From Astropecten irregularis (taxonomy: Eukaryota; Echinodermata; Asteroidea; Paxillosida; Astropectinidae): a stretch of DNA of 64,000 nucleotides. The stretch is from assembly GCA_963971285.1 (NCBI GenBank), contig OZ020262.1:3102082-3166081 (forward strand). Direction: 5' to 3'. A program made the position numbers and the translations under genes. Within the stretch, counting starts at the first letter, position 1, and every line of letters begins with the position of its first letter. This document shows, one piece after another, positions 4,171 to 63,960 of this stretch. The notes beneath the pieces are model-generated. The model worked only from the letters and a program-made list of their open reading frames with translations. It did no database searches and had not been told where the DNA came from.

Positions 4171-4946
4171 GTGCAAAAAAAAAAAGATTATTACGCTCGT
4201 CAGCTTCATCGGCAGAAAGACAACCTTAAAGGACTCTGGAGAGAAATAAACAGCATTCTCGGCAAATCAAAATCAGCTTCAATGCCAGATAACTTTACTC
4301 TTTCTAGTCCTGCTGATATTGCCAATTCTTTCAATGCATTTTGTTTTACTAATATCGGCTCTTCTCTTGCAAATAAAATCCCTGCCTCATTCACCAACTT
4401 CACTGATACCCTCTGCATAACCCCGATCCTTCCTCTTTTTTTCTTACACCAACTAATACACTTGAAATCATCCAGATTGGTAAGAACCTCAAGAATGGAG
4501 GCAGCTGTGGATTTGATTGGATCAGCTCCACGGTTATAAAATTTGTCCTTCCACTTATTGCTGAACCATTGAGCTATATCTTTAATCTTTCCTTTCAATC
4601 AGGCCTTGTCCCACTCAAGTTGAAGATAGCCAAAATCACCCCTATCTTCAAAAGTGGAGACAAGCACAACAACAATAACTACAGACCTATTTCTATCCTA
4701 CCTTGTTTCTCCAAAACTCTAGAGAGGCTCGTTTACAATCGTCTTTCTCAATTAATTTCTCGTTTCCAGATTCTGTTTAATCATCAATATGGTTTCCGTT
4801 CTAAACACTCGACTGATATGGCTCTCATCCAACTTAACGACAGAATCAACACGGCGTTCAGCAAAAAAGAATCTGCCTTTGTATTGCTCTTTCTAAAGCC
4901 TTTGATACTATCAAGCATTCTATCTTTATTACTAAACTCGCCCACT
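4171..4946 (+). pseudogene. LINE linker and N-terminal reverse-transcriptase fragment
   Basis: Frame 4171-4539 carries the linker seen before LINE RTs, with LKGLWREINSILGKSK. Frame 4569-4940 carries RT motifs: AKITPIFKSGD, then YRPISILPCFSKTLERLVYN and HQYGFRSKHST. At least one frameshift lies between them, around 4540. The RT is cut at 4946 by the MITE at 4947-5237 and continues at 5246. Confidence 0.85.
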
Positions 4947-5237
4947 CAGGCGCGGTTCTACGGGGGGGCTAGAGGGGCCCCCCAAAAATTTTGTCTAGCC
5001 CCCCCAAAAAAATGCAAGTGAAAAAAAAAATCTTGAAAATACTGGATTTGTTCAGTTATTAAGCGCCAATTACATAAAAACGCGTTGTGTGGGCTATAAT
5101 GTGCATGTTTTTCGACCCCTAATAAGACATATCAGAAGCAAATGTTAGAAGAACCCAAAATATTGGGTCTTCTAGCCCCCCCAAAAAATAATGGCTCTTC
5201 TAGCCCCCCAAAAATTCTGGCTCTAGAACCGCGCCTG
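4947..5237. mobile_element. hAT-like MITE with 8-bp TSD, C/G-run family
   Basis: The terminal inverted repeat (TIR) is CAGGCGCGGTTCTA at the left and its complement at the right. The octamer CGCCCACT flanks both ends (4939-4946, 5238-5245). CAG...CTG termini with an 8-bp TSD are a hAT signature. Inside the ends are G/C runs next to CTAGAAG motifs. A second copy lies at 13848-14167. It splits the LINE RT cleanly. Confidence 0.85.
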
Positions 5238-6625: not shown

Positions 6626-8151
6626 ATAAAGGAGAGTAGAGAGGTAGAAAAGTGCCCAGTTGCTGTTCAGCCAACAGGCAGAAACTAATGATAACTTAGA
6701 AAAATATGATAGTTATGGCGGAGGTTTATTGGTCTTAGATAATTGAACATTTCTTGGAGTTTTAGGTCCGAGCAGGTGTACGTTGAAGTATGACGATATG
6801 AATATGGCGGCTTCATCTTAACTTATACCTCCTACTGCCGTGACATTACATGTAGACATCGATATGAGTTTCCATTGTTTTAAGTGTAATGTATTGCAAG
6901 TGACAGAAAAAGAACTCATTGCGGAGAATGCAATACACAATTTGTTATGATATGTAGGCCTATGCAATGCCGCTAGCAAACAGGAAGCAGGAAAACAAAA
7001 GAAGAGAAGACCCTTAAAAAGAAGATTTTGTCTGTTGATATTATATGCTAGCATTTTGTTTTTCCTTGTTATAGTTGGTTCAATGCATTTGTGTGTTCTT
7101 TTTGCTGCACTTTATCACTCACCTTTTTGCATTTTGTTGTTTTGACCGAACAATAAAAACGAATGTGAAATTTTATATGTTTTTGTATACATCAAAACAT
7201 GTAAACGTTTATTTTGTTTATTAAAGAAATGGCAAGATCCCTTCTGAAGTTCTGATTTAACTCGTGTTTATTCTAAATGTTGCTCCTGCAGTACATGTAC
7301 TTTAAGCAGAATGTGCAGATCGGTCCATGAGATGAGGTTTGGTGACTGGCTAGAGGGCGCCTTGCGGAGGTCTCTCCACGTCTAAATGTAATATTTTACA
7401 CCATACTGCATGTACTTTGTTTTAACAAAGTTTGGTTCAAGATGGGTTGACATAAACCGTCGGGGCATTTTTTCAAGTGGGTCAAGCAAGAAGGTCCAAA
7501 ACCTATGGGGGTAGGCTGACCAACTTATTGATGAAGACATGGACAACCTAAGTAACTAAGGGGTCAAACCTTCTAGGTGAACTGGGTACAAATCTTATGT
7601 AGCTACGTACTGCTCGACCTTTGTTATTAACTCCAACTCATGAACACCTTAACAAATGGAAACAGAGTGAACCTTTTTAGGTTTGTCAACTTCCGTCACA
7701 AAATAAAGGTGTTTCATGGTAGAATCTTCAAGCTGTAATTGCTGCTGACTAACATGTATGCCACCCTACTGTGCAGGCCTGATGGTCTCCCTCAGTGGGC
7801 ATTCTCACAAATTGTACACGATACGGCTGTACAAACGATCAGTATGACGTATAGTCATACATCTTGTCATTAGTCAGTTTGGTCTAATGCCATAGAGACC
7901 GCATGTTCTTATGGACGTTCTTACACTTTTGTATGTGAAAACCTTGAAGTTTGCCCTGCCCATTCTCCATGTGTTATATAGGAAAAAACTAAGAAACTAA
8001 CAAAACCAGCAATGAAATAAAGAAAAGTATGTCCATGAAGTTCCAGTACCTCATATCTTGTTACACGACAAACAGAACATGTAGTAAAAATATCTTCAAT
8101 TGGTCATTACGCTTTCCGCTAGGCAGGAAAGCAATCAGGCGAGCAAACAGG

Positions 8152-8612: not shown

Positions 8613-9147
8613 AAACATCAGCATCATGTGAACCAATACCGATGGGTACCGAGCACTATTGATCAAAGGCTGCCATGTCAGTATTACACAGTGTAATACG
8701 TCTTGACACTAAGGAGAGGTTAAGTTGCAACTGTGGCACAGTAAGGTGTCTACATGTAATATCAGGGCAGCAGGAGGTATAAGTTAAGATGAAGCCGCCA
8801 TATTCATATCGTCATACTACAACGTACACGATCTATCTAAGGTGCTTGTACCCCGTGGAGACACCTGCTCGGACCGTCATAGGACTAACCAGTAACTGCT
8901 TAACAGTAGCTCTCCCTGCAAATATCCACCTTTAATCAGTTTATTGGAAATCACCGAGGAGAGATGTTTTGTTTACCAATGAACTCACCAGATATGCATG
9001 ATTCAAATCTCAGCAGACATAAGCTGCCCCTCGAATGCGATACACACGATACACGTTACTGAACAAACAAGTCATCAACACGCAAAGCATGTTGTAGTAA
9101 ATAAGTCAACTACTATCGCATACTTCTTGTCAGAAACATCCGTGATT

Positions 9148-10236
9148 ATGGCAAGAATGCTAGTGGGTTGCTGGAGATTGACAACATTCATGTTAGTCTG
9201 TAGCCTCATATTATCAGTGGTGAAAGCTGTTGAAGAAAATAAACAATGCACACGTTACTTCTATACAGGAACAGTTCGACATCCAAGGAAACAATGCAAC
9301 GAAAAGGTAAGTTCATGTTTCCAAAAACGTTTTGGTCATAAATTGGGGAGTCCTTTGTGGTCATCAATAATTGTCGCACTAAAAGAAATTGAATGCCACA
9401 AAATACATGGATAACAAATGATTGCTTTTGAAATCAACAAAATCATTTGGTATGTACATCTTATGTCACCTTAGTTTTTCTCTGGTAGCGTTGCGGCTTG
9501 AGAGGAAAAATCACTGTCCAACAATCGTGCAATGCTTAATTCTATTTTTTAGAGTGAAAGGTCGACAGTCCAAACCGTTTCATTTAAAATATTTGAAATA
9601 ACTTAAGGGCCATGTCACACGAGGCAATTTTTCCGGGCAACTTGGAGGCAAGCAAGTACACCACGTGCAAAAGTCTGGGTAGAACAAGTCATTTTTCTGT
9701 CAGTTTCTCATTATCCCCTATAAAGTTAAACCAAGATTTTAAGATGAAGACAATTTCTTTATGGAGATTGCCTGAAACTGGTTGCCTGTATATTGCCTCG
9801 TGTGACATGGGCCTACATTTAAAATGCTCCAAGTACAGTTCTATATTTGAAATACAAGCAGTGGCAGGTCCTAAGATATGATTGGATTTTTCTCAATGAA
9901 TTTTGAATCAATAAGACAGTGTTTTCCTTCTGCACATCGCGATGCATACAGCAATACAAGAGGGTTTGATTTGTATGATTGCAGGTTGTATTATTGTCAA
10001 GATGTGCTGGACGTTGTGACGTCACGTCGTCAGCAGACCCAGTCGTCGCGTTTCGAAGTGTACTAAGGCATCCTTTCAAATATCGCTGCACTAGCTGTCA
10101 AGACCAGACGTCGGCCATGAAAGCCGTACGCCTACGCTGTAGAAACAACGAGAGAGTATATGCGGTATATCGCTACATATTGCAGTGTGGCTGTTCGGCT
10201 TGTAAGGGTGGCTTACACCTTCGCTCATTGGTATGA
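9148..10236 (+). CDS. Bursicon/glycoprotein-hormone-like secreted cystine-knot protein, two exons
   Basis: Exon 1 is 9148-9306 (53 codons) and ends in a strong donor, AAAAG/GTAAGT. Exon 2 is 9985-10236, after the acceptor TGTATGATTGCAG. Both junctions are phase 0, giving about 136 aa. Residues 1-27 look like a signal peptide (MARMLVGCWRL, hydrophobic core, VKA before the likely cut). The mature part has ten cysteines. CAGRC and CTSCQD match the CxGxC and CxxCQE blocks of bursicon alpha. As I recall that protein, the spacings of 9 residues before CxGRC and 13 residues after CxxC are also identical. The end, LQCGCSAC, matches the terminal CxCxxC. Start 9148 has A at -3 and G at +4; the frame is open upstream to 8998, but that adds residues before the signal peptide. 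In the known family such proteins are dimeric secreted hormones acting on LGR receptors. A GPA2/GPB5 or DAN-type relative is possible. The intron carries a MITE (9607-9813). Confidence 0.72.
9607..9813. mobile_element. MITE with GGGCCATGTCACACGAGGCAA ends, in the hormone-gene intron
   Basis: GGGCCATGTCACACGAGGCA at 9607 faces the complementary sequence ending at 9813. About 207 bp lie between the outer ends. The interior has repeated TTGCCTGxAxxxGGTTGCCT motifs. Flanks are TTAA on the left and TACA on the right, so the TSD is unresolved. The frame at 9612-9881 is inside it and is not a gene. Confidence 0.8.
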
Positions 10237-10255
10237 ATAGTATCATTTCAACTTA

Positions 10256-10688
10256 GGCCCGCTTCAAAATCGAACTTTTACCGTTTCAAATAATTCAAAC
10301 AATGACCCAAAATTAGAATTAGACACGGCAGAAGTTCAACGTTTTGAAGCAACTGCCGGCTTGCTGTTGAACGATCGACTGGTCTTGCCGCTTGTAACGG
10401 CAGAAGAGCGTCACGGCTTCAAACGTCGATTTTCTGCCGTGTCTAATTCAATTGATACGTTCTAAGTCAGAGTTCCACCCGTATCGTTTTAAAAGAAAGA
10501 GCACAGCCTTCTCACAATATAAGAATACATCACAATATTATAAATCTCTCTTGGTCCGCCATGTTGAAATTTGCATCAAGGTTAATAGAAAACCGGCATT
10601 TGATGCAACTGCCGAACTTCCACCGCTTTTATGTCAATTGAAATGTATTGAATTAGACACGGCAGAAGTTCCACGTTTGAAGCGGGCC
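10256..10688. mobile_element. Harbinger-like MITE with TTA target duplication
   Basis: GGCCCGCTTCAAA at 10256 faces TTTGAAGCGGGCC ending at 10688, with TTA on both sides (10253-10255, 10689-10691). A second motif, ATTAGACACGGCAGAAGTT, occurs near both ends. It begins 20 bp past the hormone stop codon, so it may sit in that gene's 3' UTR. Confidence 0.8.
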
Positions 10689-10869
10689 TTACTGCCTGTT
10701 GCATTTATGATTTAAAATGACTAATGAAACATGCTAGGCATATCCCATTCAAAGTCATGCAATGTTATTCAACCTTAAATGGTTGGCCTGTTAATTGCGA
10801 ATATCCGAATGTGGCATTATAAGAATAATCATTATCATGCAGGGCAAGAACTAAGACCAACTAAGTACA

Positions 10870-21800: not shown

Positions 21801-24800
21801 ATAATATTATTGCAACGTGTTTTCGTCGTTTTTTCTATTGTTTCCACTATGATCAATTGAGCTAAACATTTCAAACATTTGTTTTTATTCCATGACAAAT
21901 CACGTTGAGCGGCCTGCAGCTCTTCTATCACCATTACCAATCATTGTACTTGCATGCCCTTTAATAGAATAGGCGGTATACATTTACTGTGGCTCTTCGA
22001 ATTTCGAAATCATATGATCAATACGCATAATTATATTAAATAGATCGGAACAGTACTTACAAAGACCATTGGACGAGTTGAATCCAGCCATAGCAGATTA
22101 TCAGCGACAGACTCCACTGAAACTTCATCTACATCAGTCATATTAATCGACTTCAAAATATCTCCATTCCTGAGAGTCAAAGATTGTAAAGTCATCTAGT
22201 GCGCATGACTTTGACTTGCTGTCTCGCAGTTTATAACTAAAATATACTAAAGTATTCCTTAAACTAACCATTTAGGGTGCGGTTTTTGAATCTATGTTAT
22301 ACCATTACAGCATAACTTAGTTATAAAGGCTACTTTTATATAGACATATTAGTCTAAGGACGGTTTGCAAAACATAACAAAACTTAACAAATATCCATTC
22401 AACAAAACAAATTTTGATGGGCTTTGAAGAGTAAGTTCCTAAAATTACAAGCCTTAAAATCAAGCATCAATGCACATACGTCAATGAGAATAATACAAGG
22501 TATCATTCAATGATTATCAGTTTCCATAAAAAAAATCATTTTGTCAAAAAGATACACATCTTGTGCGATCCTTTTTATGATTATGTATCAGGAAATTGAT
22601 TTTCGTGTCGCCCAATGATTAAGATTCAATATTGAGATATATCCAACCTTAGTCCAATTTTGTAAGCCAGACGACCGGAGGCAATACTTTCAATCAAAAT
22701 CTTGGCGGCGTCACGGGCTTTATTTAGACGGCATTCCAGTTCACAGTAAGCGTATGGTACGCCAGGAAACTTCATGTACAACCGAAAACCTTTCTGTTAA
22801 GTAAAACAAATCAGACCAAATAAGTTAAAATGGGGTTCTTCTAAAACCCCCTCGACCCCCACGATCCACGACCCATGACCCCCTCGACCCCCACGATCCA
22901 TGACCTCCTCGACCCCCTTGACCCCCACGATCCACGACCCACGACCCCCTCGATCCACGACCCACGACCCCCTCGACCCCCACGATCCACGACCCCCTCG
23001 ACCCCCTCGACCCCCACGATCCACGACCCACGACCCCCTCGACCCCCACGATCCACAACCCCCTCGACCCCCAAGATCCAAGACCCACGACCCCCTCGAC
23101 CCCCATGATCAATGACCCCCTCGACCCCCTCGATCCATGACCACGACCCCCCTCAACCACCTCAACCCCCTCGACCACCTCGACCCCCACGATCCACGAC
23201 CCACGACCCCCTCGACCCCCTCGACCCCCACGATCCACGACCCACGATCCCCACGATCCACGATCCACGACCCACGACCCCCTCGACCCCCTCGACCCCC
23301 ACGATCCACGACCCCCTCAACCACCTCGACCCCCTCGACCACCTCGACCCCCACGATCCACGACCCACGACCCCCTCGACCCCCACGATCGACGACCCAC
23401 GATCCCCTCGACCACCACGATCCACGACCCCCTCGATCCACGATCCACGACCCCCTCGACCCCCACGATCCACGACCCCCTCAACCCCCACGATCCACGA
23501 CCCCCTCAACCCCCTCGATCCATGACCACGACCCCCCTCAACCACCTCGACCCCCACGATCCACGACCCACGACCCCCTCGACCCCCTCGACCCCCACGA
23601 TCCACGACCCACGACCCCCTCAACCACCTCGACCCCCTCGACCACCTTGACCCCCACGATCTACAACCCCCTCGACCCCCTCGACCCCCACGATCCACGA
23701 CCCACGATCCCCACGATCCACGACCCACGACCCCCTCGACCCCCTCGACCCCCACGATCCACGACCCACGACCCCCTCAACCACCTCGACCCCCTCGACC
23801 ACCTCGACCCCCACGATCCACGACCCACGACCCCCTCGACCCCCTCGACCCCCACGATCCACGACCCATGATCCCCTCGACCCCCACGATCCACGACCCA
23901 CGATCCCCACGATCCACGACCCACGACCCCCTCGACCCCCTCGACCCCCACGATCCACGACCCACGACCCCCTCAACCACCTCGACCCCCTCGACCCCCT
24001 CGACCCCCACGATCCACGACCCACGACCCCCTCGACCCCCTCGACCCCCACGATCCACGACCCACGACCCCCTCAACCACCTCGACCCCCTCGACCACCT
24101 CGACCCCCACGATCTACAACCCCCTCGACCCCCTCGACCCCCACGATCCACGACCCACGATCCCCACGATCCACGACCCACGACCCCCTCGACCCCCTCG
24201 ACCCCCACGATCCACGACCCACGACCCCCTCAACCACCTCGACCCCCTCGACCACCTCGACCCCCACGATCCACGACCCACGACCCCCTCGACCCCCTCG
24301 ACCCCCACGATCCACGACCCATGATCCCCTCGACCCCCACGATCCACGACCCCCTCGATCCACGATCCACGACCCACGACCCCCTCGACCCCCACGATCC
24401 ACGACCCCCTCGACCCCCACGATCCACGACCCCCTCAACCCCCTCGATCCACGACCCACGACCCCCTCAACCACCTCGACCCCCTCGACCAACTCGACCC
24501 CCACGATCCACGACCCACGACCCCCTCGACCCCCACGATCCAGGACCCACGACCCCATCGACCCCCTCGATCCACGACCCACGACCCCCTCGACCCCCTC
24601 GACCCCCTCCATCCACGACCCACGACCCCCTCGACCCACGCTACCACTACTAGAGTACCATTTTGCAATGCCATGCATATCTCATGGCCGACCGGAGCCT
24701 GAATAATGATCCCAACTGGAACCTGTTACCACCCGACTTCGATTCCGGCCAACTCATTAGCGTGAATTCGGCTTTCGATCTGTACCGGTTTCAATATACG

Positions 24801-44344: not shown

Positions 44345-45230
44345 TTGCTTGCTGAAGTTAGGCAAGCAAGAAAGGGGAAAAGCCCCATAAAAGTGAAGCT
44401 TGCTGATGTGAGACAAGCAGGTGAGGGGAAAAGCCCCATAAGAGTGAAGCTTGCTGAAGTTAGGCAAGCAAGAAAGGGGAAAAGCCTCATAAAAGTGAAG
44501 CTTGCTGATGTGAGACAAGCAGGTGAGGGGACGGGCCCCATAAGAGTGAAGCTTGCTGAAGTTAGGCAAGCAAGAAAGGGGAAAAGCCCCATAAGAGTGA
44601 AGCTTGCTGAGGCAAGACAAGCAGGAGAGGGGACGGGCCCCATAAGAGTGAAGCTTGCTGATGTGAGACAAGCAGGAGAGGGGAAAAGCCCCATAAGAGT
44701 GAATGCTTGCTGAGGCAAGACAAGCAGGAGAGGGGACGGGCCCCATAAGAGTGAAGCTTGCTGATGTGAGACAAGCAGGAGAGGGGAAAAGCCCCTTAAG
44801 AGTGAAGCTTGCTGAAGTAAGACAAGCAGGAGAGGGGGCGGGCCCCATAAGAGTGAAGCTTGCTGATGTGAGACAAGCAGGAGAGGGGAAAAGCCCCAAA
44901 AGAGTGAATGCTTGCTGAGGTAAGACAGGCAGGAGAGGGGACGGGCCCCATAAGAGTGAAGCTTGCTGATGTGAGACAAGCAGGAGAGGGGAAAAGCCCC
45001 TTAAGAGTGAAGCTTGCTGAAGTAAGACAAGCTTGAGAGGGGTCGGGCCCCATAAGAGTGAAGCTTGCTGATGTGAGACAAGCAGGAGAGGGGAAAGGCC
45101 CCTTAAGAGTGAAGCTTGCTGAAGTAAGGCAAGCAGGGGAGGGGAAAGCCCCTATAACTTGAAGCTATAGTTGATGCGAGACAGGCAAGAGAGGGGAAAA
45201 GCCCCTATAAAAGATAGAGGCTAGCGGATG
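44345..45230 (+). repeat. 51-bp minisatellite with two hairpins per unit
   Basis: About 16 units: GGGG-loop-CCCC, then ATAAGAGTGAAGCTTGCTGA and a CAAGC closing the second stem. Loops alternate between AAAAG and ACGGG while GGGG/CCCC is constant, giving a ~102-bp higher-order period. 51 is divisible by three, so frames stay open on both strands (VRQAGEGKSPIRVKLAD; LPNFSKLHSYGARPLSC). These lack starts or domains and are artefacts. Confidence 0.9.
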
Positions 45231-48200
45231 TGACACTAGCAGGGAAAGAAGAGGCTTGCCGATATGAGGCATTCAAAGGGGGTTCCCTGAGAAGGATGAG
45301 GGTTTTTATGAGGCAGGCCCTATCAGGAGAAGAAGAGAAATAAAGCGGCCAGATAATAATGGCTTATTATGGGACAGTTCTAGTCAAATCAGGAGAAGAG
45401 GGAGAAAGCCCCACGAAGGGTTTGCTAGTCCATTCAAATAGTCTAAGTGTTAACGTATTAAAGCAGACGAAAAAATGAGGAGAGCATTGGGGCAAACATA
45501 ACGGTGACGAATGCTTCGCTTTTATCGGGAAAGCCCGAAATTCCAGAAGGGAGAGAACCCTTTACGGTAAGACGGGCTACGCCGGGGCCCAGAAGAGCCC
45601 ATCAAGGGACGGTGTGGAGGTGTTAATAAAACAGAATGCTATAAGACGTGTTGAACTCTTGTGGTTTTTTGATGTGGTTTTTAACGCTGTTTTGTTCTCT
45701 TTCCCGTTGCCCAGTCCATATGCCCCGCTGGCATGCAGTCAGTACTTCGTGGGAGCAGTTGTCCGCCAATGTTTTGCAGTTCTTACCTTACAGCCGGAGC
45801 AGGGGATAGCTCATGGGCAGACATACACCCCGTGAGGGTAGCTATCGCCAGGTTGGACTAAATCTGAGTCTTGGCTTTTACGGCCCAGAATGGGTCGGGA
45901 TGGGCGGCTCCGTTGCGCGAGTACTGATGGGAGGCTTGGGATACGTTTTTGACTGGGTTAGGGCACGGTGCGTGATGGGGAAGGGGAATCAGATCAGGAG
46001 CCTTGGCAAGGCAGTCCGACAAGGCAGTTCCAAAGCGCGCCCTCGCATTGGCGGGTAGTTTGTTTGTGCCCTTATTATTTAAACAATTGCAGGGCTGTTA
46101 ATAATATGCTTCTGTAGGAATGTTTATCAGTGGGGCCACAACGCCCATATTGGTCCTTCCATAGGGGCACAATCCTCGGGGTAGGGACTCCTCGAGGGTC
46201 CGAATGGACGGGGTCCTTTTTTTTCTTTTTTTTTACGCACAGCCTGTGTGATGATGTTCTGCCCCAAGCAGCGCTTCTATTTGCTTGGCAGCTGGATCTC
46301 GCCATTTGTCCGTGCGGAGGAGCAGTGGAACCCATGAAGAAGAGCAGTGGAACCCATGAAGAATTCTCGTTTGATTGCCGTTTCCTAACGGAAGCCAATA
46401 GGGGTTCAAGGTGTAGGCTCCTGGGCGACGACTTGCATTCTATTTCATTCACTTCCAGAGGGTTCAGCCAGTGCCGAAGAAGACGGGAGTGTCACTGGCC
46501 TTATAATTGGGCCATTTCATTGACGTGAGGAGAGGACATCGACGGCCGGCCTGCACCTTTTGTGTCAGTGGCTACGCCTCAATTCTAGCTCTTTATGGGC
46601 ATCTGGTGGGCTGATACGAAGAATGTTATATTCGCCAGGTAAGGGAGGACATCTTGTCGGTGCTAGCGGAGTTCTTTTGAGGGCCATGCTTGGTCGTTTC
46701 AAGGGCCGGAGTTGTTCTGTTTGGGTTGTGTGACGTTTTCACTTCCTACCTTGATGGTCCCACTTTGGTTCCGCTGATTCGGTCCCAATAGGTTGGGGAC
46801 AGGAACTTCCGCTCAACAATGCGGCTCACCTTGGATGCATCGAGTTACAGATATAGGGTGGAGTGCCGCCGTCGCCTATTTTGTTGCGGCCAAGAGGCAT
46901 TAAGCTTGGGTTTTACTCGTTAAGGGGGTCATACGCTGCAAAGAGGCTCCCTTCACTTCGTGCTCCCTGTGGTGCGCCATCTTTTGAGCAGACGGAGGTG
47001 GATGCGCTAGCGGATTCGGTGATATAACGCCACGCGGGATCAGGTCTCCAAGCGAGGTCGGTCATGTTTGCGAGTGAATTGAGCCTTCTCATTCGTGCCT
47101 GCAGTGGAGAGGATTTTCACTTGTGGGTGCCGTTTAGGAGTAGGCCTAATCCGACTGACGCCCCCTCGAGGTAATTTTTGTCGAGGGCTGGCTCTCGGCT
47201 CATACCGTGTTTGGGGTGGCTTCTTCGCAAGAGGGGGAACTGGGCGGTAAGTAGTACGTGAAGTCTAACGCATGTGGGTTTCTTCTACTATACGTGCAGT
47301 TTGCACGAATGAAAGCCAGTCTGGAGAGGCTGGTCCAAAATTTTGGGCGCTTGCCCAAACAATAGCAGGTACGGGGCTGTTTGTTTGATCAAGCTGGGAT
47401 GCACTTGCTCGAACGTGCCCCCCTGCTGCCATTGTTACTGAAGGTGGAGCATTCAGTAGACCGAGGCTCAAGAGGGAAGACCCGATCCTGTTATGATGTC
47501 CTTGGATGGCCTAGTGGGGGAGACAAGGTTTTCAAGATGGCTAGCGTCAATCATGCTTGGTAACGGTAGCGGGCACAGTGGGCTCATGTAGGAGGACCGT
47601 ATGGCATATTGTCCTCTTTGTACTCGATTGCGGACATCCAGGGTATCCAAACACCCGAGATAAAAAAAAAAAAAAAAAAAAATTATAATCATCGAAGCGG
47701 GTCAAAAAATAAATGAAGCTACTCGGTCGGAGCAGGCCAGGGCGCTCGTCTTACCAGGAGGTACAATGGACTTTTTCTCTGGCGGGCCCGATGGTTGGTC
47801 GGTGAGATTTGGGAGTCGGGCAGCTTTGCCTTCGCTAAGGCAGCGGACCCAAGCCTCATTTCAGCTGAATAATTGGGTTCCCCTCGGAATTCTAGGCATA
47901 TGGGGCAACGGGCTTAAATCAGGGTTGTGGATCTGGCCCGCGAGGATGCTTTGACATGTTTTCAGGAGCTTCAAATTTCCGGATGCCCCGCGCCAGTTGC
48001 TTAGTGAACAAAGTCTTTGTCGTGAGGCAGCCCTGATATTCGGTTTCAAACTGTATTGTCAGGTTCTTTGGACGAGGGCTGCCACGCCCTGGGAGCACTT
48101 AGGCACTTGGCCTCCACCTTGAAGCTTCTAGGGCCGCGGAGCAGAGCAGAGAGCGGCTCCTCGAACCTGGGGTGCAGCTGTGCCACATTAACGACGTAAC

Positions 48201-53850: not shown

Positions 53851-53988
53851 AGATGACATAGTAAGGTGACCTAGAAGCTACTCTCTGGTCATGCCAGCAA
53901 ATTTGTCAATCTTTGATGCAGCAGGCTTGGTCATTTACCAGTATATGAGAATATCTACCAGTGTAATTAATGAAGATTATTTTTTCTG

Positions 53989-54037
53989 GATTTCTTTCCT
54001 CAGGGATGCACATGTTCAGACGCATACTTGTACCAAA
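53989..54037 (+). promoter_or_regulatory. Splice acceptor and 5' UTR before WDR53 start
   Basis: GGATTTCTTTCCTCAG is a pyrimidine tract ending in AG at 54003. The 34 nt to the ATG have no in-frame start. It rules out translation from 53891 in a spliced transcript. Confidence 0.6.
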
Positions 54038-55165
54038 ATGGAGTTAAAGACAGTTTGGAGGAATGGTCATATGGAGACAGTTCTTTGTCTGGGACTGAAT
54101 GTACTAAATGACGTAGCTGCATCTGGAGCTGAAAAGGGTGAGGTATGTCTGTGGAGCCTTGATGGAAAGGTGATCAGCAAAAAGACTTTTCCCTCTTTGG
54201 CTGATGTTAACAGCGTGCGCTTCTCTTCAGCACAGCCATCTATACTGTACGTTGCTGTAGGGCAAGTCATTGAAATGGTTGATATTCGATGTCCAGATAA
54301 CTCCATGGTAACATTCACTTACAACAAGGAGGACATTAACCAATTAGCTGTTGATCCTAAGGATGCTTTCCTAGCAGCTTGTGATGATGATGGAGTTATC
54401 AAAGTCATCGATGTTCAAAACCATAAAGTGTTCAGGACGCTTAAGGGTCATGATAACATATGCTCCAGTGTGTCATTTCATCCCAGTGTGCCAAGGGAGA
54501 TGGTATCTGGTGGTCTGGATTGTTTCATTCATACATGGGAGATAAATCGAGGGAAACCTTTAGTATCAATGAACATGCAAGAGGTTCTACTTGAAGTTGC
54601 AGCTGGAGATGATGAGACACCTAGCCCATACATGATCAACCCTCCATTTGTACATTCTGTGGATCACTCCAGTAGTGGTAATCATATTGCTTGTGGTTTG
54701 GAAAATGCGCAAATCCAGTTACTTGAGAGAAAAGGGAGAAGGAACTTGTTATCTGCTAGAAGCCTTCAAGGACATAGTCTTGGTGTTACACAGGTGTGCT
54801 TTGTGCCGGATTGCCCAGGACAAACCCCAGATTTGTTGGTTTCAGCGGGGAACGACTGTAGGCTTATTCTGTGGGATACATCACCCAAATGTTGCAGTTC
54901 TGGAGATACAGGGAAAACTAAAACAGTAGCACAGAGATCAGAAACAAATTCCAAGTCAGAAATTGAACTAACTAGTGAGTGTGAAGGTACCAGCAAGGAT
55001 TGTAGTTCAAGCGAATCATCAGTTTTAAGCAAAAACCAGCAACGGTGTTCCATAAAACACACAGATAAAATTAATTGGATTGCACCATTATATTCATCAG
55101 GTGGAACCAATCTGATTCTTGTTGCAGATGTTTCCCAAACCGTATCAGTCTACCAGTGGCAATAG
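54038..55165 (+). CDS. WDR53: WD repeat-containing protein 53
   Basis: A single uninterrupted coding exon gives 375 aa; the human protein, as I recall it, is about 358 aa. Distinctive matches to vertebrate WDR53 are VLCL near the start, ASGAE.G near residue 30, SLKGHDNICSSVSFHP-type sequence (here TLKGHDNICSSVSFHP), VSQVCF (here VTQVCF) with GNDCRLILWD, and a C-terminal KINWI and ILVADVSQTVSVYQ block. The WD40 repeats form a beta-propeller scaffold. The human protein has been listed among DDB1-CUL4-associated WD40 proteins, but I see no clear WDxR motif here. Start 54038 is preferred over the upstream in-frame 53891, because a splice acceptor (TTTCTTTCCTCAG) ends at 54003 and homology begins at MELKTVW. 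So a 5' UTR intron is likely. An acidic/serine-rich insert lies near residues 290-335. It converges with the ABCC4-like gene. Confidence 0.93.
   Translation: MELKTVWRNGHMETVLCLGLNVLNDVAASGAEKGEVCLWSLDGKVISKKTFPSLADVNSVRFSSAQPSILYVAVGQVIEMVDIRCPDNSMVTFTYNKEDINQLAVDPKDAFLAACDDDGVIKVIDVQNHKVFRTLKGHDNICSSVSFHPSVPREMVSGGLDCFIHTWEINRGKPLVSMNMQEVLLEVAAGDDETPSPYMINPPFVHSVDHSSSGNHIACGLENAQIQLLERKGRRNLLSARSLQGHSLGVTQVCFVPDCPGQTPDLLVSAGNDCRLILWDTSPKCCSSGDTGKTKTVAQRSETNSKSEIELTSECEGTSKDCSSSESSVLSKNQQRCSIKHTDKINWIAPLYSSGGTNLILVADVSQTVSVYQWQ

Positions 55166-60066: not shown

Positions 60067-63960
<3,894 letters not shown>

Follow-up and report, generated by a model that had tools for sequence, protein, structure and literature searches.

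A candidate invertebrate Norrin (NDP) gene with the NDP intron and one intersubunit cysteine fewer

Which cystine-knot family is encoded at 9148..10236 of the window (the whole 64-kb stretch of DNA analysed here), and how does its product compare with the best-known members of that family? The locus had been described in a preliminary way as a hidden two-exon gene for a bursicon-like hormone. The comparisons below lead to Norrin, which is lost in Norrie disease, activates Wnt-type signalling and is a non-Wnt ligand using Wnt receptors. A gene with the same intron and one intersubunit cysteine fewer would be a natural test of which Norrin features are old and which came later, namely the dimer bonds, the Fz4 surface and the heparan-sulphate strip.

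Gene model and match to Norrin

The spliced frame opens with an ATG at 9148 on the forward strand, leaves exon 1 at AAG/GTAAGT, resumes after TTGCAG at 9985 and closes with a stop codon ending at 10236, giving a product of 136 aa. Its parts are as follows.

9148..9306 (+): coding exon 1, with a signal-like N-terminus and the first mature residues including Cys34 and Cys50 (cleavage site assumed)
9307..9984 (+): intron of 678 bp, GT-AG, phase 0
9599..9821 (no strand): inverted repeat pair within the intron, arms 9599-9628 and 9792-9821
9985..10236 (+): coding exon 2 with stop codon, holding the remaining cystine-knot domain with 8 Cys and CTSC where human Norrin has CHCC

The donor and acceptor, the 678-bp intron, the common phase and the length of about 136 aa had all been given in the preliminary description and were recovered here. 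Because a second in-frame ATG occurs at 8998, with no stop between 8998 and 9148, the start at 9148 was deduced from the signal-like stretch. The 138-aa open frame listed at 8998-9414 contains exon 1, a small correction to the earlier remark that neither exon stands out as a long open frame. The hydrophobic core encoded by exon 1 covers about residues 11-25, with a peak at 16-25, and as far as hydropathy alone goes this N-terminus is in keeping with a signal peptide. The precursor has 12 cysteines, ten of them after the hydrophobic N-terminus with spacings of 15, 9, 3, 23, 2, 13, 15, 1 and 2 residues; the motifs CAGRC, CTSCQ and CGCSAC match the ten-cysteine pattern with CxGRC, CxxCQ and CxCxxC reported before.

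When the spliced protein was compared with the PDB chain sequences (phmmer), human Norrin was the best match with an E value of 1.3e-27. Up to an E value of 10, the search returned eight distinct sequences, of which six were Norrin constructs, at 1.3e-27 to 4.6e-25, and the other two NBL1/DAN, at 0.0084 and 0.02. The Norrin alignment runs without a gap through residues 30-131 of the spliced protein, crossing the splice junction, with 44 identities in 102 residues (43 in 99 if the last three, which lie beyond human residue 133, are omitted). Exon 2 by itself matched Norrin with an E value of 9.7e-21, while exon 1 by itself had no match among the PDB sequences. With Norrin as the phmmer query, the spliced protein scored 97.7 bits, while the best of 1000 cysteine-preserving shuffles reached 23.3 and the best of 1000 full shuffles 13.3. 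The ungapped BLOSUM62 score of residues 30-53, encoded by exon 1, against Norrin was 53, which was reached by none of 100000 full and none of 100000 cysteine-kept shuffles; the same segment ranked first among all stop-free 24-mers of the window (39541 over six frames), the runner-up scoring 29. A chance pairing of open frames was ruled out by the shuffle scores and the 24-mer ranking. Overall, the spliced frame, the PDB match and the shuffle tests agree with the earlier proposal that a hidden gene of two exons encodes a cystine-knot protein whose N-terminus is signal-like.

A Pfam search matched the whole protein to DAN (E 5.9e-5, 23.5 bits, above the cut-off of 22), with Cys_knot (2.8e-4) remaining under its cut-off. 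Exon 2 alone reached 18 bits for DAN and fell under the cut-offs of both families, and exon 1 alone matched no Pfam family. No NCBIfam family, from a set of bacterial and archaeal models, matched the spliced protein. An AlphaFold model of the 83 aa from exon 2, made with no alignment, had a pLDDT of 42.7 and a pTM of 0.28 and was unusable.

Cysteines and contact residues

The bonds of human Norrin comprise four intramolecular and three intermolecular ones, the latter being Cys93-Cys95, Cys95-Cys93 and Cys131-Cys131 (PMC4497409). The intermolecular set was taken from the text of that paper and the eight intramolecular positions were assigned by exclusion. In the alignment, the window protein keeps all eight intramolecular positions (as positions, not as pairing) and two of the three intermolecular ones, with 93 and 131 present and Ser at 95; human CHCC is thus CTSC. 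The spacings between the retained cysteines are identical to those of Norrin. With serine at 95, neither Cys93-Cys95' bond could form, and the dimer would be linked through Cys131-Cys131' (Cys126 of the window protein), perhaps with Cys88-Cys88' in addition, or partly by non-covalent contacts. Dimer-breaking mutations are said to abolish signalling (PMC4497409). Since a human Norrin mutant without Cys93, Cys95 and Cys131 is monomeric and binds Fzd4 at 13 nM (PMC11695057), the loss of one intersubunit cysteine need not abolish receptor binding.

The contact surfaces were compared by the same alignment. The GAG residues of Norrin given in PMC4497409 (Lys58, Arg107, Arg109 and Arg115) are all four conserved. 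The Fz4 set consisted of residues altered in binding mutants or engaged in a salt bridge (38, 41, 43, 45, 46, 61, 63, 102 and 104), and three of these nine are kept (41, 61 and 104); most of the positions were probed in combinations or by an added glycan, so a single change does not predict a loss of binding. In the proposed LRP5/6 patch (54, 90, 97, 112 and 121), only Arg121 is kept, Arg90 being replaced by Lys. Predicted Tspan12 contacts at 82, 102, 107, 115, 117, 119 and 121 (PMC11695057) are conserved at 107, 115 and 121, i.e., three of seven, and the positions outside the Fz4 site (52, 114 and 116) at none of three. Only the GAG set, small at four residues, exceeds the overall identity of 43%. 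Since the Fz4, LRP5/6 and Tspan12 sets are kept no better than that, Fz4-type binding is unsupported by these residues.

Norrin outside vertebrates has been encountered before. A probable NDP orthologue is reported from coral (PMC4079206), and BLAST matches to Norrin at an E cut-off of 1e-6 are given as three in EchinoDB and none in EchinoidDB or OphiuroidDB (PMC9590158). The structural and functional work described in PMC4497409 and PMC11695057 uses human Norrin. An invertebrate Norrin is therefore a known kind of protein, and one without the seventh conserved cysteine is a variant of it. In PMC4079206, NDP and bursicon are assigned one cysteine pattern, with gremlin and NBL1 lacking the seventh cysteine, which by our own reading of that text is human Cys95. 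None of the titles and abstract openings surveyed, in searches not aimed directly at this feature, reported a Norrin without Cys95, which does not prove its absence.

Identity of the gene and proposed mechanism

The intron adds a line of evidence of its own. The 133-residue human protein is encoded by exons 2 and 3 of NDP only (PMC6885210), and the coding intron lies at c.174/175 (c.174+1), between codons 58 and 59, in phase 0 (PMC9412000). The predicted intron in the window falls between residues 53 and 54, which are aligned with human residues 58 and 59, and is likewise in phase 0. This common position does not depend on the sequence score, and it speaks for common descent with NDP. As the eight intramolecular cysteines, the spacings and the intron position equal those of Norrin, the protein is placed as a Norrin/NDP homologue, and it is nearly certain that the gene is Norrin-type in the broad sense (the Norrin gene proper, a paralogue or a pseudogene). 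On score, spacing and intron position, which together form the basis for orthology, the locus is quite probably the Norrin (NDP) gene proper of an invertebrate animal, an invertebrate origin being suggested by the low identity to human Norrin (44 of 102). It shares with human Norrin/NDP (PDB 5bpu and others) two coding exons, all intramolecular cysteine positions, Cys93, Cys131 and the GAG-site residues, and differs in the Cys95 replacement, in running eight residues past the position of human residue 133, and in its sparsely kept Fz4-probed and LRP patch residues.

According to the first suggestion for this locus, the product is a bursicon-type subunit, either alpha, beta or from a new branch, with an LGR-type GPCR as its receptor. 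Such a subunit would belong to the same cystine-knot superfamily and, judged by a presumed bursicon core, would share the spacings of 9, 3 and 13 and the CxCxxC end. However, the 9- and 13-residue spacings, although correctly noted before, are not bursicon-specific: Norrin has both, plus the 15, 23 and 15 that it shares with the window protein and in which bursicon, by the presumed core, differs. The solved bursicon structure 8enb was in the searched library, yet it was absent from the plain search up to an E value of 10. A profile built from Norrin and the spliced protein listed ten PDB sequences up to the same limit, six of them Norrin (9.7e-61), followed by NBL1/DAN at 0.037 and 0.046, 8enb at 1.1 and von Willebrand factor at 2.1; the Norrin values are inflated, Norrin being part of the profile, and what can be read from the list is how the others rank. 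With BLAST, the presumed core of bursicon alpha gave 20 bits, against 106 for Norrin. Three spacings and the C-x-C-C block, which we take to be the bursicon form, also differ, and the missing middle cysteine of that block, already pointed out in the preliminary description, was confirmed as CTSC. The bursicon identity was rejected on PDB search, profile ranking, BLAST and spacings; the suggested bursicon-like family gave way to Norrin, and we regard a bursicon-type subunit as exceedingly improbable.

Two other readings keep the gene within the Norrin type. A paralogue derived from Norrin that has taken on another role, such as antagonising BMPs or serving LGR4 as a ligand instead of a Frizzled, in a lineage that also has a standard Norrin gene, would fit the CxxC block left by the loss of Cys95, with gremlin and NBL1 also lacking the seventh conserved cysteine (PMC4079206), as well as the three of nine Fz4-site residues kept, NBL1 being the next family by score, and the proposal of human Norrin as an LGR4 ligand (PMC4201215). 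The likeness to NBL1/DAN and gremlin extends to the common superfamily but not to the scores, which are far lower (in the PDB search NBL1 stands at 0.0084 and gremlin is absent up to an E value of 10). Moreover, the GAG-site residues and the intron are as in NDP, and tblastn of the spliced protein within the 64-kb window found no second copy, only its own two exons scoring well and the next match having an E value of 0.44. A paralogue of this sort thus seems unlikely. Even less is to be said for a decaying copy, in which the loss of Cys95 would be damage: a functionally important cysteine is gone and there are inverted repeats both within the intron and immediately 3' of the gene, but the reading frame is open, its start, stop and splice sites are present, and all ten remaining cysteines are retained in an alignment free of gaps, which makes a pseudogene very improbable.

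For the Norrin gene proper, the most likely product, as predicted from the sequence, would be a heparan-sulphate-bound dimeric ligand of a Frizzled/LRP complex, with a differently linked dimer and an uncertain receptor partner. The protein would be secreted, fold as a Norrin-type cystine knot and dimerise; heparan sulphate would hold the dimer on cell surfaces via the basic strip that is conserved here (human Lys58, Arg107, Arg109 and Arg115), and the ligand would bring a Frizzled and LRP5/6 together, leading to beta-catenin signalling. A bolder version is conceivable, albeit rather doubtful, in which this Norrin has natively lost the intersubunit bonds between Cys93 and Cys95 together with a large part of the Fz4 surface, keeps the heparan-sulphate strip and uses another receptor partner. 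If true, such a differently linked invertebrate Norrin would show the origin of the vertebrate Norrin-Fz4 pairing.

Surroundings of the gene in the window

The neighbours of human NDP are EFHC2 and MAOA/B. No synteny with human NDP was recognised in the window by eye in the open-frame listings together with Pfam on ten chosen stretches. These listings covered up to 213 of 468 stop-to-stop frames of at least 50 aa, namely those of 62 aa or more outside low-complexity stretches and tandem arrays, with the region 31.2-36.3 kb listed at 55 aa or more, and short exons would escape them. A tRNA scan of the window found none.

Among the recognisable coding stretches, two exons of an ABC transporter at 60070-60381 (-) and 63688-63960 (-) have ABCC4/MRP4 as best PDB matches (E 4e-10 and 6e-18), and by eye the frame at 63405-63656 (-) seems to belong with them to one ABCC4-like gene. 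A single open frame of 424 aa at 53891-55165 (+) contains WD40 repeats and presumably resembles WDR53; the bacterial and archaeal models of NCBIfam gave no family for it. A reverse transcriptase fragment (Pfam RVT_1, E 5e-8) occupies 4407-5018 (+), and the frames at about 3.6-5.0 kb may, by eye, share a broken retroelement with it.

Several repeats lie around the gene and elsewhere in the window. The inverted repeat pair inside the intron is probably a small foldback transposon remnant, and directly 3' of the gene, at 10255-10690, there are interlaced inverted repeats with arms of 29-37 bp that resemble a foldback element. Upstream of the gene, an 83-bp stretch at 8747-8829 has an inverted copy of 95% identity about 2 kb off, at 6776-6858, and the two are probably copies of an interspersed repeat. 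Long minisatellite arrays occur at 22846-24640, 44347-45243, 61078-61964 and other positions, with periods of 7 to 453 bp, of 51, 102 and 205 bp, and of 64 and 127 bp.
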